From Candidatus Bathyarchaeota archaeon (GTDB taxonomy: Archaea > Thermoproteota > Bathyarchaeia > RBG-16-48-13 > GCA-020355125), in the NCBI GenBank assembly GCA_026015035.1, contig JAOZHB010000052.1:1-52501 (forward strand): DNA of 52,501 nt, in the 5' to 3' direction. Position numbers and translations under genes: made by a program. Every line of letters begins with the position of its first letter. Within the stretch, counting starts at the first letter, position 1. Under the pieces are notes generated by a model. That model did no database searches. It was not told where the DNA came from and saw nothing but the letters and a program-made list of their open reading frames with translations. Shown in pieces: positions 2,411 to 52,501 of the stretch.

Positions 2411-5400
2411 CTAGCTTTTTTCTACTCGTACTAAGCCCATCCTGAGCTTTTCCCCCGCAAGGTCAAATATCTCAACAAATGCGTTTGCTGGCGGCTCAGT
2501 CGGGTGCAACACTTTAGACAAGGTCTCAGCCATTATATAGTGTCCATAGGCTTCGAATACCGAGGTGAGTTGTGGTCCCACGTCATAGTAGGTTTCAATT
2601 TCATCGGCGATCTTGAAGCCCGCGTTCTTCCGTTGATTTTGAATTCGGCGGACGACGTCTCTTGCTATACCCTCCCGCTCCAGCTCTTCATTCAACACGA
2701 TGTTGACGCCGACCATGAGTCCCTGATCCTCGGCTATAACCCATCCCTCCTTCGCTTCAAATCGCACCTCCACCTCCTCTGGGAGTAGGGTTACAACCCG
2801 GTCCTCTACCTCTAGATCCACTCCGACGCCCTCCCTAAATGATGAGGCGACGGTCTTAGCGTCCATGTGTGCCAATGCAGCTTGAAGTTTAGGAAAAAGG
2901 GAACCGTACTTCTTCCCAAGTGTCTTCGGTAGCAAACGCACGGCATACGTTACAAGTTCGTCTTCTTGACTGGTCAGGGTAACCTTTTTCACATTCAATT
3001 CTGCCCCAACCAGTCCCTTTAATCGTTGAAGCCGTGTTACTAATGCCGTCTCCCCCACGATCTTGGCCTCAGCTAGGGGTTGGCGAAGCTTTATCCGCGA
3101 CTTGTTTCGGGCGGAACGTCCCAACCCGCTTGCCGCGATCACGGTGTCCATTTCGCTCATCAAGGCTTCGTCGATCAGGGAAGCATCTGCCAACGGCCAA
3201 TCGTTGTGGTGGACGCTCTCATGGGCGTCATGATCCACGCGGCGAACCAGATTTTGGTAGATCTCCTCCGTTGTGAAGGGTAAGAAGGGTGCTAAAAGCT
3301 TGATGAGGGTGATGAAACAGGTGTGTAGGGTGGTGTAGGCGGCTTTTTTATCTTCATCGGACTCGCTCTTCCAAAATCTCCGTCGAGATCGGCGAATGTA
3401 CCACGTTGAAAGTTGATCGACAAACCTTTGCAGAATCAGGGTTGCGTTGTAGGCATCGTAGACGTCCAACAGGCTCGTTACGTCTTGAATGAGGACGTGA
3501 AGTTTGGACAGCATCCAACGATCCAGTGGGGAACGAGTGTCCGTTGTGTCTTCAGGCGTCCACTCGTCAAGGTTGGCATAGGTCACAAGGAAGCTGTAAA
3601 TGTTCCAGATCGGAATGAGAAACCGCCTCTTCACGGTGTCAGCCCCCGCGTAGCCAAAGGTCAGATTGGTTTCAGCCTTGTTCGCACAGTACATCCATCG
3701 CATCACGTCTGCGCCCATGTGCTCCACGGCGTCATCGAACCAAATCGCGTTACCCCACGACTTATGCATCTCCCGCCCGTCTTCAGCTAACACCAAGCCA
3801 TGACCCACGCATGTTGAGCAGGGTGATTCTCGCTCCAGAATTGTGCTCATGGTCAGCAGGGAATAGAACCAGTTTCTAAATTGCCCTGGTAAAGACTCAC
3901 AAATTAAATCGGCTGGAAACCACTTTTTCCAGTAGTCCCGGTTGAAACGATAGTCAAGAGTGGAATAAGCTACGATGCCCGCGTCGAGCCAAGGATTACC
4001 CACATCCTTGATCCGGGACATGGGGACTCCACACTCGGGACAGCTGATCTTAACAGCGTCAATCCAAGGGCGGTGGGGAGTGTGCCCCTCGAAGGCCTTC
4101 CACCCCGCCACAGCCCTCTCCTCAAGCTCGTCTTCTCCTCCGATGACATCGAAGAATCCGCATTCTTTGCACTCCCATATGGGCAGGGCCAGCCCCCAAT
4201 ACCGCTTCTTCGAAATCATCCAGTCATCCATGTTCTGCAGCCAATCCAACTCCTGCTGCAAGCCATAGGAGGGGATCCAGCGAACTTTCTGCGCTACCTC
4301 CATGATCTGATACCGTAAATTATCTTCAACCACGTTTCTCCCCACGGATGGTAGAGGCGCCTCCAACTTCTCACCCATTGCGATGAACCATTCATCCACG
4401 AGGCGGAAGACCAACTCATTTCCACAACGCCAACAGACGGGGTAGCGGTGAGCGTAATCCTCAACTGTGAAAAGAAGGCCTTTACCGCGAAGTCTATCAA
4501 TGATGGGTTCCGCTGAATCGTAGACATGGCTTCCCGACAGCCAGTCAAAGCCGTCGAGGAAGACACCGTACTCATCCAGCGGAGCCACGGCGGGTAAATG
4601 ATGCGTTCTCCCTAACTCAAAGTCCTCTTTTCCACAGCCCGGGGCGATGTGGACGATACCGGTTCCCTCGGCTTCACTTACCTCGTCCCACAAGATAATA
4701 CGATGTGCGGCGGCTGCTCCAGCCTCCTGTTCAGCAGGGATCTCGTCAAAGGGCCCCTCATAAGCCCAGCCCTCCATCTCCCTCCCGTTCAAGGTATTCA
4801 AGATTTGAGGTCGCATCGTAAACACTCTCTCAACAGCGTTTTCGCCAAGATAGAAGGCTTCATCGTTCCAACGAACTTTCACGTAGGTCATATCCGGGTG
4901 AACCGCTGCTGCAACGTTGGCTGTCAACGTCCAAGGCGTCGTAGTCCACACGAGTAAAGACTCTCCAGGTCTCCCCCGCAGCCGAAACCTGATGGTGACT
5001 CCCGGATGGATCAGTTCACGATATCCCTCCGTCGCAATCTCGTGTTGGGAGATAGCGGTGGAACACCGAGGACACCAAGGCAGGACATCCCGTCCCTTGT
5101 AGAGCCACCCTCGTTCATAGCATTTTTTCAGAACAGCCCAGATAGTGTAATTGTTTTCGTTAGAGAAGGTGAAGTAGGAGCCTCCTAGCACTGAGGTTCC
5201 CAACTGTCCGACCAACTGCTCAACCGAATCGGTCACAAGCCCCCTGGCTCCTTCAACGGTTACTCTTTCTTCGGGATGCTTCATGAAGTCTGCTAGCTGG
5301 TGGAGCATATGGATGTCGTCCCAGTCCATCCAGTATCCCAAGCGTATGGATTGCGCCACTTGAATGGCAGAGAAACGCAACACACGCTCCTTACACTTAT

Positions 5401-5770
5401 TGATGAATCTTGCGATGCCGTACTCTTCGATGTCCCTCTTTGAGCCTAAGCTAAGCTCCTTCTCAACCTCGACCTCAACCCAAAGTCCCTGACAGTCGAA
5501 GCCGTTTTGATAGCGGAGGTCAAAGCCGTTCATGGCCTTGTAGCGTTGATAGAGGTCTTTGTAGGTCCGTCCCCAAGCATGGTGAACGCCCATGGGATTA
5601 TTTGCCGTGATAGGACCGTCGATGAAGGACCATCGAGGGTTTCCCCTGTTCAAGGACACTCGTTTAGCGAAGGCATCTGTTTCCTTCCAGAACTTCAAGA
5701 TGCTTCGTTCCATTTGGGGCAGGTTAAAGGTTGGGGGCACTTCTTTGTAGAGGGTCATCTTTTTCTTCAC
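2411..5770 (-). CDS. ileS: Isoleucyl-tRNA synthetase with altered HIGH and KMSKS motifs
   Basis: This 1119-residue class I synthetase charges tRNA-Ile. Its order is standard: catalytic N-terminus, CP1 editing domain (about residues 200-400, with VWTTTPWTLTANVA), the KMSKS region near residue 667, an anticodon-binding helical domain from about 750, and a C-terminal extension. Two signatures are unusual. Where canonical enzymes have HXGH, this one has GVHH at residues 61-64, in the gap-free context DGPITANNPMGVHHAW. KMSKS is replaced by EMHKS. Zinc-ligand-like pairs appear in CPRC, CWRCG, CKEC and CPECG. The GXHH swap is known in some mupirocin-hyper-resistant bacterial IleRS2 enzymes. The stop codon lies inside an AGCT-type motif. 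No second ileS is present in the window. Confidence 0.95.
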   Translation of the reverse strand: MKKKMTLYKEVPPTFNLPQMERSILKFWKETDAFAKRVSLNRGNPRWSFIDGPITANNPMGVHHAWGRTYKDLYQRYKAMNGFDLRYQNGFDCQGLWVEVEVEKELSLGSKRDIEEYGIARFINKCKERVLRFSAIQVAQSIRLGYWMDWDDIHMLHQLADFMKHPEERVTVEGARGLVTDSVEQLVGQLGTSVLGGSYFTFSNENNYTIWAVLKKCYERGWLYKGRDVLPWCPRCSTAISQHEIATEGYRELIHPGVTIRFRLRGRPGESLLVWTTTPWTLTANVAAAVHPDMTYVKVRWNDEAFYLGENAVERVFTMRPQILNTLNGREMEGWAYEGPFDEIPAEQEAGAAAAHRIILWDEVSEAEGTGIVHIAPGCGKEDFELGRTHHLPAVAPLDEYGVFLDGFDWLSGSHVYDSAEPIIDRLRGKGLLFTVEDYAHRYPVCWRCGNELVFRLVDEWFIAMGEKLEAPLPSVGRNVVEDNLRYQIMEVAQKVRWIPSYGLQQELDWLQNMDDWMISKKRYWGLALPIWECKECGFFDVIGGEDELEERAVAGWKAFEGHTPHRPWIDAVKISCPECGVPMSRIKDVGNPWLDAGIVAYSTLDYRFNRDYWKKWFPADLICESLPGQFRNWFYSLLTMSTILERESPCSTCVGHGLVLAEDGREMHKSWGNAIWFDDAVEHMGADVMRWMYCANKAETNLTFGYAGADTVKRRFLIPIWNIYSFLVTYANLDEWTPEDTTDTRSPLDRWMLSKLHVLIQDVTSLLDVYDAYNATLILQRFVDQLSTWYIRRSRRRFWKSESDEDKKAAYTTLHTCFITLIKLLAPFLPFTTEEIYQNLVRRVDHDAHESVHHNDWPLADASLIDEALMSEMDTVIAASGLGRSARNKSRIKLRQPLAEAKIVGETALVTRLQRLKGLVGAELNVKKVTLTSQEDELVTYAVRLLPKTLGKKYGSLFPKLQAALAHMDAKTVASSFREGVGVDLEVEDRVVTLLPEEVEVRFEAKEGWVIAEDQGLMVGVNIVLNEELEREGIARDVVRRIQNQRKNAGFKIADEIETYYDVGPQLTSVFEAYGHYIMAETLSKVLHPTEPPANAFVEIFDLAGEKLRMGLVRVEKS

Positions 5771-50564: not shown

Positions 50565-51332
50565 TTGGTTATTCATGTGATTGGGATTGGAAGGAACAGC
50601 GGAAAGACCAGGCTGATCGAAGGATTGACGAGAGAGCTGACCAAGAGAGACTACAGAGTTGCAACGGTAAAACACATCTTTGAAGGCACCTTCGACACAG
50701 CCTACAAGGACACGTGGAAACACCTTCAGGCAGGCGCCAACCCGATCATAGCCGTTACCTCCAAGGAGCTAGTCTCGATAAAAGCATGTACGGATCCTTC
50801 ACTGGAGAAGGCCTTGCACGAGGTGCCAAGGGATGTCGACGTTGTCCTAGTCGAGGGATTCAAGGAGTCGGATAACCCAAAAATCCTCACCGCGCGAAGC
50901 CTAGGTCAAGTGGAGGAACTGAAGGAGTTGGCCACACAGGCGATAGCGATATCTGGTCCCATCGCCTCAGAGAAAGGCTGCCCCAGCACAGTTCAGGATA
51001 CTCCAATTCTCGAACTTGGCGAAGTGGTACCTCTCGTGGAGAGACGGCTTCTTGAAGCAGCTGTGAAACGACTTCCCGAGATCGATTGCAGGAGATGCGG
51101 CTACGAGTCGTGTAAAGCCTTAGCCACAGCAATATTGGAGGGTAAAGCATCGATCGACCAGTGTAAGACCCTAGCTGAAAGGGATGTGGTTCTCACGGTC
51201 GATGGCAAACCCATTGCCCTGAGTGCCTTCCCCAAGAACTTCGTCAGAAACACGGTGTTGGGAATGATTAAAACCCTCCGAGGGGTCAAAGCAGCACCCC
51301 ACGCCATCTCATTGGAAATCGAGTTGGATTAG
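50565..51332 (+). CDS. MobB-like GTP-binding protein with C-terminal Fe-S domain; start probably frameshifted
   Basis: The 255-residue product has the P-loop VIGIGRNSGKTRLIEGL (about residues 5-21), VATVKHIFEGTFDT and VVLVEGFKESDNPKIL, as in MobB, which binds GTP and helps attach a nucleotide to molybdopterin. The C-terminus has CRRCGYESCKALATAIL followed by a fourth cysteine (IDQC), a 4Fe-4S domain found in archaeal fusions. The TTG start is poor. Fifteen to twenty bases upstream, GGGAGGA plus ATGCCCCACGTTCTT would give MPHVL and run into this frame if one G near 50567 were missing, so a frameshift or base error is likely. The gene meets aspS end to end. Confidence 0.88.
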   Translation: MVIHVIGIGRNSGKTRLIEGLTRELTKRDYRVATVKHIFEGTFDTAYKDTWKHLQAGANPIIAVTSKELVSIKACTDPSLEKALHEVPRDVDVVLVEGFKESDNPKILTARSLGQVEELKELATQAIAISGPIASEKGCPSTVQDTPILELGEVVPLVERRLLEAAVKRLPEIDCRRCGYESCKALATAILEGKASIDQCKTLAERDVVLTVDGKPIALSAFPKNFVRNTVLGMIKTLRGVKAAPHAISLEIELD

Positions 51333-52501
51333 GGCAGAATCCTCTCTGGCGTGCGAGGGAACAAGGTGACTTCCCGTACGTTCTTGATGTCTAAAAGCTG
51401 CATGAGAAGCCGCTCGATTCCTAGGCAGAATCCGCCGTGAGGGGGAACCCCGTATTTGAAGAAATTGGTGAACCACGCCATGGACTCCAAGGTCATCTCC
51501 TTCTCCTTCAACTGCGAAATTATGTGATCATATCGGTGTTCCCGTTGACCCCCGGAAGACAGTTCCAATCCCTTGTAGAGGAGGTCCACGCTTCGCGCCC
51601 ACAGAGGCTCATCTTCAACCCGCATAACGTAAAAGGGTTTCACCTTGAAGGGATACCGGTTCACGAAAAAGAAGTCGGTTCCATGCTTTTCCCGCACGTA
51701 CTTCCAAAGTAGCACCTCTGACTCCCGATCGTAGTCCTCTCCATACTCGATCGTTTTCCCCATGTCTTCAAGGATTTCGTAGATCTGGGGAAACCTCAGC
51801 TCGGGAAAGGGCTGCCGGGGAATCGTCACCTCTTTGTTGAGCAAAGTTAACTCGTCCACACTCTCGTCCTTAACCTTCTGTAAGGTAGCCACAACAAAGT
51901 CTTCCTCAAGGCGAATCATGTCCGACTCGTCCTTCATGAAGGCGAATTCAACGGCACAAGCCCGGTGCTCACACAGATGCCGGGGGGTGTGGCTTGGCTC
52001 AGCTCTCCAGTTGGGCCCTAAATCAAAGATCTTGTCGAATCCAGACGCGATCAACAACTGTCGATGCAGTTGGGGATCCTGCCTCAGGAAGGTCGTTTTA
52101 TCGAAATAGAGGACGGGGAAGGCCTCAGCGCCGCTCTCCGACGGCGCACCCATAAGGCACGGAGTAAACACTTGGAGGAACCCTTCTCGTCTAAGATAGT
52201 CCTCCATGCCCTCTACGATCTTGGCCTGAACCCGAAAAATAGCCGCGTTTTCAGGCCTCCGTAAATCGAGAACACGCCAATCCAAGCGAGTGTCCAGATT
52301 GGACGTAATCTTCCCAGACACGTCCAAGGGGAGAGGAACCTCAGCCTTGCTCAACACTCGGATCTCCGATGGAAGCACCTCGATGCCCCCGGGAGCATTC
52401 TTATGTGTGACTGCTCTTCCCCGGACAGAGATGACGTCCTCCAAGTTCAAGCCGTCAGCTACGGACAGAAGATGGTTCTCAACAACGCCCTTCTTTAAGA
52501 T
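51329..52501 (-). CDS. aspS: Aspartyl-tRNA synthetase, archaeal type (5' end outside window)
   Basis: The track ORF begins at an internal TTG (52450), but the frame is open to the window edge and encodes ILKKGVVENHLLSVADG before it, so the start lies outside; 390 residues are visible. The N-terminus is the end of the OB-fold anticodon-binding domain. The class II core follows: FLQVFTPCLMGAPSESGAEAF (motif 1 and Asp pocket), FDLGPNWRAEPSHTPRHLCEH (motif 2) and GGFCLGIERLLMQLL (motif 3), ending FPRTPERILP. This is the short archaeal/eukaryal form without the bacterial insertion. Whether it also charges tRNA-Asn cannot be told. It overlaps the MobB stop by four bases. Confidence 0.94.
   Translation of the reverse strand: MLKKGVVENHLLSVADGLNLEDVISVRGRAVTHKNAPGGIEVLPSEIRVLSKAEVPLPLDVSGKITSNLDTRLDWRVLDLRRPENAAIFRVQAKIVEGMEDYLRREGFLQVFTPCLMGAPSESGAEAFPVLYFDKTTFLRQDPQLHRQLLIASGFDKIFDLGPNWRAEPSHTPRHLCEHRACAVEFAFMKDESDMIRLEEDFVVATLQKVKDESVDELTLLNKEVTIPRQPFPELRFPQIYEILEDMGKTIEYGEDYDRESEVLLWKYVREKHGTDFFFVNRYPFKVKPFYVMRVEDEPLWARSVDLLYKGLELSSGGQREHRYDHIISQLKEKEMTLESMAWFTNFFKYGVPPHGGFCLGIERLLMQLLDIKNVREVTLFPRTPERILP

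Follow-up and report, generated by a model that had tools for sequence, protein, structure and literature searches.

A type-2 isoleucyl-tRNA synthetase with an interchanged HXGH signature as the likely sole housekeeping enzyme of a Bathyarchaeia archaeon

The isoleucyl-tRNA synthetase (IleRS) encoded at positions 2411 to 5770 of contig JAOZHB010000052.1 (Candidatus Bathyarchaeota archaeon, assembly GCA_026015035.1) carries GVHH in place of HXGH and EMHKS in place of KMSKS. The 52,501 nucleotides analysed are hereafter called the window. The explanation that best accounts for the data as a whole, to which we give a probability of about 0.82, is that the working IleRS of this archaeon would be a type-2 enzyme (IleRS2) belonging to a Chloroflexota-centred clade with the signature G/AXHH. 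This enzyme, transferred from bacteria, would have replaced the ordinary archaeal IleRS as the sole housekeeping form; its third-position histidine, His63, would be the catalytic histidine, taking over the role of the first one, and the bulky His63 would clash with mupirocin, leading to high resistance.

The open reading frame is uninterrupted from a GTG at 5770 to the stop at 2411 and encodes 1119 amino acids. The ATG of codon 5 agrees better than this GTG with the starts of the relatives. The features assigned to the gene are as follows, in window coordinates.

2411..5770, minus strand: ileS, type-2 isoleucyl-tRNA synthetase of the Chloroflexota-type G/AXHH clade; GTG start, with the ATG at 5758 as a likely alternative
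5579..5590, minus strand: GVHH, residues 61-64, replacing HXGH, at the start of a predicted helix (62-80)
5480..5491, minus strand: QGLW, residues 94-97, replacing HGLP, clade-wide
5180..5314, minus strand: insert of about 45 residues, residues 153-197, predicted helix and beta hairpin
4937..4945, minus strand: Thr-rich peptide of the editing domain, TTTPWTL, kept according to the alignment
4622..4624, minus strand: Asp383 of the editing site (GTGIVHIAPGCGKED), kept according to the alignment
4202..4225, minus strand: DWMISKKR, residues 516-523, replacing DWxISRxR, clade-wide
3977..4000, minus strand: GNPWLDAG, residues 591-598, replacing xDxWxDSG, clade-wide
3866..3886, minus strand: GQFRNWF, residues 629-635, replacing DQTRGWF, with one additional residue ahead, clade-wide
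3758..3772, minus strand: EMHKS, residues 667-671, replacing KMSKS, with the second lysine (670) retained
3071..3523, minus strand: anticodon-binding domain (PF08264), residues 750-900, domain match
2429..3010, minus strand: C-terminal DUF5915 region (PF19302), residues 921-1114, domain match

Regarding the identity of the protein, its score exceeds the equivalog cut-off of the NCBIfam ileS model TIGR00392 (712.5 vs 621.4 bits), and its scores against valS and other NCBIfam models lie under their cut-offs. The plasmid-type resistance enzymes MupA and MupB are ruled out by score (590.6 and 572 bits against a cut-off of 1900). The protein contains the class I core with its editing region, the anticodon-binding domain and DUF5915. 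Its AlphaFold model (pLDDT 91) has the IleRS2 fold, the top PDB matches being Priestia megaterium IleRS2 (E ~1e-85), and the best PDB match by sequence is 8c8w, which is itself a GVHH mutant. In the predicted structure, helix alpha-1 begins at residue 62, and the site of IleRS1 Tyr59 is occupied by Thr55 in the alignment. The position in the trees, the nearest structures and the IleRS2-like active-site residues all point to the type-2 assignment.

The canonical class I signature pair of HXGH and KMSKS is absent from the protein. GVHH (residues 61-64) aligns without a gap to the signature of solved IleRS2 structures, and EMHKS aligns, likewise without a gap, with their KMSKS, as was originally predicted. 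With Gly or Ala at position 1, His at position 3 and no gap, the arrangement is equivalent to the interchange described for bacterial IleRS2, a further part of the original prediction that holds. Fifteen full-length sequences of the class, the window protein included, show GVHH and (E/Q)MHKS in aligned columns, and the DNA pattern NPM(G/A)xHH was found in 53 of 257 Bathyarchaeia genomes (22 of the 120 good ones), compared with no match in the same 257 for a reversed control pattern. Because of this agreement at the sequence level, the swap is neither a chance feature nor a sequencing error.

A scan of named genomes with the search words MGVHHAW and DWMISKK yielded 80 loci, among which Chloroflexota predominate (Anaerolineae, Ardenticatenia, Thermoflexia and others). 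The other bacteria are Poribacteria, Marinimicrobia, KSB1, Latescibacterota, Cloacimonadota, Thermomicrobia and Rubrobacter, and the archaea comprise Bathyarchaeota, Brockarchaeota, Thorarchaeota and Methanomethylicus. All 77 named loci with the N-terminus present have G/AXHH. This uniformity is no search artefact, since members with GVHHGW, GIHH, GLHH or AVHH could be reached through DWMISKK alone. Several other motifs are changed together throughout the clade, namely GPPTANG to GPITANN, HGLP to QGLW, SRxR to SKKR, DxWxDSG to NPWLDAG and DQTRGWF to GQFRNWF with one preceding extra residue. In the GXHH enzymes examined from actinobacteria and clostridia, these motifs keep their canonical forms. 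Judged from the aligned residues, GVHH and EMHKS belong to a remodelling of the active site that runs through the whole clade.

The altered KMSKS had been regarded as an added oddity of this enzyme, and that part of the original prediction did not hold up: xMHKS is standard in the clade, bacteria included, and frequent among the CysRS, ValRS and LeuRS enzymes of the class. Within the clade alignment, the position reads xMHKS (first residue E, P, A, Q, D or S) in every row except L122, a divergent member on a viral contig that has KFSKT. Across the class, an xMHKS pattern occurs in 164 of 257 genomes, and the cases examined are CysRS, ValRS, a LeuRS that has a canonical HVGH, and ordinary IleRS with HXGT. 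As His669 is found clade-wide, the possibility that EMHKS compensates for GVHH was weighed; we propose no specific connection between the two, because xMHKS occurs without GVHH and L122 combines GVHH with KFSKT. On the aligned residues, EMHKS is a common variant that keeps the second lysine, not a defect. Other signature variants were seen in the class. Loci L209, L199, L228 and L231 have xMHKS for KMSKS in CysRS, ValRS and LeuRS, and the ordinary archaeal IleRS often has HXGT or HXGL, with the fourth histidine replaced (e.g., HVGTAWNK; loci L027, L028, L030, L033, L176, L177, L179, L188 and L192). HXGT and EMHKS occur together in the ordinary IleRS of two families.

Searches of the source genome with PF00133 and TIGR00392 detected no second ileS, in line with the suggestion that the enzyme is the only IleRS, in a metagenome-assembled genome (MAG) that is 88% complete with approximately 7% estimated contamination. 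The other class I matches in this genome are MetRS (C14) and the start of LeuRS (C93). As the MAG is incomplete, the sole-copy claim leans mainly on relatives. Among 61 related genomes, the source genome excluded, 21 carry the swapped type (two as fragments) and none of these 21 shows a second IleRS; most of the non-carriers have the ordinary archaeal IleRS, at 29-39% identity. Likewise, each of 12 named carriers (Brockarchaeota, Thorarchaeota, Methanomethylicus, Chloroflexota and others) contains a single gene above the ileS cut-off. These distributions bear on the proposal that the gene product is a degenerate synthetase or a paralogue serving a different purpose, with the housekeeping ileS located in the 12% of the genome that the MAG lacks. 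The two non-canonical signature motifs and the incompleteness of the MAG would speak for it, but more complete relatives also carry solely the swapped-type gene, and the protein has intact, conserved domains for aminoacylation, editing and anticodon binding, which makes this proposal very improbable. The window enzyme is likely to be the sole housekeeping isoleucyl-tRNA synthetase.

The gene is also a genuine resident of archaeal genomes. A copy from the same genus is 89% identical, and a copy from the same family, in a single-contig genome, is 69% identical. The contig neighbours of ileS include a non-discriminating AspRS and a geranylgeranyl reductase, and the GC and GC3 of ileS are ordinary for the contig. 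The AspRS, of the archaeal type, lies at window positions 51329-52450 and has lost its N-terminus at the contig end. That the contig could be a Chloroflexota contaminant of an archaeal bin is suggested by the estimated bin contamination of 7.4% and by the 55-60% identity of the closest bacterial enzymes. The archaeal neighbours, the ordinary composition, the relatives in 53 genomes of the class, including a single-contig one, and the union of the archaeal copies of the Bathyarchaeia group in one well supported clade stand against contamination; the archaeal neighbours, the composition and the class-wide relatives led us to reject it, and its probability is negligible. Given the ordinary composition of the gene, its entry into archaea is probably old. 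Genome G004, which belongs to the same family as the source genome, has an ordinary archaeal IleRS with HVGH and KMSKS (L189), indicating that the two IleRS types replace each other inside one family.

The enzyme type extends well beyond the source genome, to approximately one-fifth of the class and many Chloroflexota. Its relatives in Bathyarchaeia are 55-89% identical to the window protein, and their spread is patchy, frequent in families f1, f9, f12 and f13 and seldom found in f10 or f20. A sample spanning the phylum added three carrier genomes from outside the class. Three trees with 76, 45 and 34 rows were concordant in their main points. The G/AXHH clade (59 rows) has full support and is sister to the other IleRS2, and the ordinary archaeal IleRS of the class fall outside it. 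The Chloroflexota-centred GXHH clade and the actinobacterial GXHH group are separate. One group (support 99/100) unites Bathyarchaeia, Brockarchaeota and Methanomethylicus and is sister to an Anaerolineae-type clade at a node of modest support (88/86), and Thorarchaeota are placed among Chloroflexota (support 100/99). In AU tests, a single clade of GXHH and ordinary archaeal enzymes was rejected (p = 1e-4), as was one clade uniting all archaeal GXHH members (p = 6e-7); a single archaeal origin of all GXHH enzymes was likewise rejected. The original prediction had suspected a distinct clade or gene transfer, and both are supported.

A 45-residue insert is common to both archaeal groups and the Anaerolineae-type bacteria and is missing from other IleRS and from almost every basal bacterial member. 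The Bathyarchaeia group is one residue short in this insert, and Thorarchaeota have the bacterial length. The insert is homoplastic to some extent: the bacterial row L109 has it and its sister L117 does not, which may reflect loss, regain or recombination. Together with the trees and AU tests, the insert speaks for archaea having acquired the gene at least twice, once in the Bathyarchaeia/Brockarchaeota/Methanomethylicus group and once in Thorarchaeota. For the former group, the donor and the direction from bacteria are not certain and rest on parsimony, because the sister node is moderately supported. The clade might instead have arisen in archaea and then passed to Chloroflexota, given that the better-modelled trees place the Bathyarchaeia group beside the Anaerolineae-type clade, as its sister, and not within it. 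This course of events is improbable, as every basal member is bacterial, as are the other IleRS2 that form the next outgroup, Thorarchaeota are nested in bacteria, and the gene is patchy in archaea (53 of 257 genomes in the class and three genomes outside).

Regarding possible vehicles, the phage and plasmid collections gave only distant IleRS (<60% identity), many on evidently bacterial DNA. Phage-collection matches H23-H37, labelled as Listeria, Enterococcus and Staphylococcus phages, are ordinary bacterial ileS, and the ileS in those records is probably host DNA. The divergent GVHH IleRS of L122 (L122:93-8632, an IMG/VR contig; 38% identical, KFSKT) lies between an integrase of the phage type, a GTPase-like ORF, a protein of the tRNA_SAD editing type, and an ABC substrate-binding protein with its permease; this contig is possibly a mobile element carrying ileS.

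The catalytic and pharmacological consequences can be approached through published IleRS2 variants. According to PMC10485003, interchange of HXGH and GXHH in IleRS2 shifts the Ki for mupirocin by approximately 175- to 820-fold in both directions, and IleRS1 is intolerant of the swap. In IleRS2, the displaced tip of helix alpha-1 leaves space for a third-position histidine, which substitutes for the first histidine in GXHH enzymes (PMC10485003). In the window protein, IleRS1-specific contacts with mupirocin are missing, Asn70 and Phe586 corresponding to Gly67 and Leu659 in the alignment. By analogy with these swaps, and in view of the IleRS2 fold and the missing IleRS1 contacts, His63 would serve as the catalytic histidine and the window enzyme would be expected to be hyper-resistant to mupirocin. 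The published effect on Ki may not be transferable to it, because the published enzymes are otherwise canonical, and HGLP, DQTRGWF and other motifs are altered here.

The selective reason for the swap is a separate matter from the identity of the enzyme. With a probability that falls only slightly short of even, GXHH may have been kept for catalytic or architectural reasons, being ancestral in the clade and transferred along with the gene, with no antibiotic role in archaea. G/AXHH is shared by all members seen, in widely differing phyla, several other active-site motifs are altered alongside, and GXHH was reconstructed for the ancestor of the minor clade in the tree described in PMC10485003, all of which suit such retention. 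It is, however, compatible with resistance as a by-product, and the repeated swap-in of an essential enzyme in archaea calls for some advantage. Moreover, a mutated ileS serves as a resistance marker in Methanosarcina with pseudomonic acid as the selection agent (PMC3403347), showing that mupirocin can act on an ordinary archaeal IleRS. A bolder extension, which we consider doubtful, is that archaea at least twice gave up their own essential IleRS for a bacterial one with a remodelled active site (swapped signature, xMHKS, GQFRNWF and QGLW) because it withstands natural antibiotics that target IleRS in sediments. The remodelled site would then represent a second, naturally optimised class I layout and not a tolerated mutation.

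Returning to the preferred explanation of a transferred type-2 enzyme in sole housekeeping use, several uncultured archaeal lineages would depend for housekeeping solely on a swapped signature that in bacterial IleRS2 is known for conferring resistance, and this form was acquired more than once. The motif variant is known from bacteria; its spread into several archaeal groups seems to be undescribed. No report of a GXHH IleRS in archaea was found in the open-access literature, and an earlier notice elsewhere is possible. Natural enzymes with an old, fixed swap would provide test beds for the third-position catalytic histidine and the co-varying motifs, and caution is advisable when such archaea are to be selected with mupirocin or pseudomonic acid.

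Among known systems, the clade of the window enzyme probably corresponds to the "minor IleRS2 clade" described by Brkic et al. 2023 (PMC10485003), which it resembles in its IleRS2 type, in G/AXHH, in its Planctomycetota and Chloroflexota members, and in having GXHH in the ancestor. Descent from node 747 of that paper would be in keeping with a Chloroflexota-centred clade that stands apart from the actinobacterial GXHH group. In that paper, the motif is treated in bacterial IleRS2 and 41 archaeal IleRS are handled as a separate group; archaeal carriers, xMHKS and the other altered motifs do not figure in its main text. SgIleRS2 of Streptomyces and DrIleRS2 of Deinococcus share the HXGH swap and have measured mupirocin Ki values in the mM range, but they belong to another IleRS2 group, with approximately 35% identity to the window protein; unlike it, the actinobacterial sequences examined keep HGLP, DQTRGWF and KMSKH. 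Priestia megaterium IleRS2 (8c8v; GVHH mutant 8c8w) provides the best sequence and fold matches, and its mutant shares GVHH, whereas the natural enzyme has HVGH, is approximately 32% identical and lacks the 45-residue insert. The Lokiarchaeon ileS2 (Cvetesic et al. 2016, PMC4861432) is likewise an IleRS2 gene in an archaeon; it stands next to an archaeal-type IleRS, whereas the window type is found as the sole IleRS.
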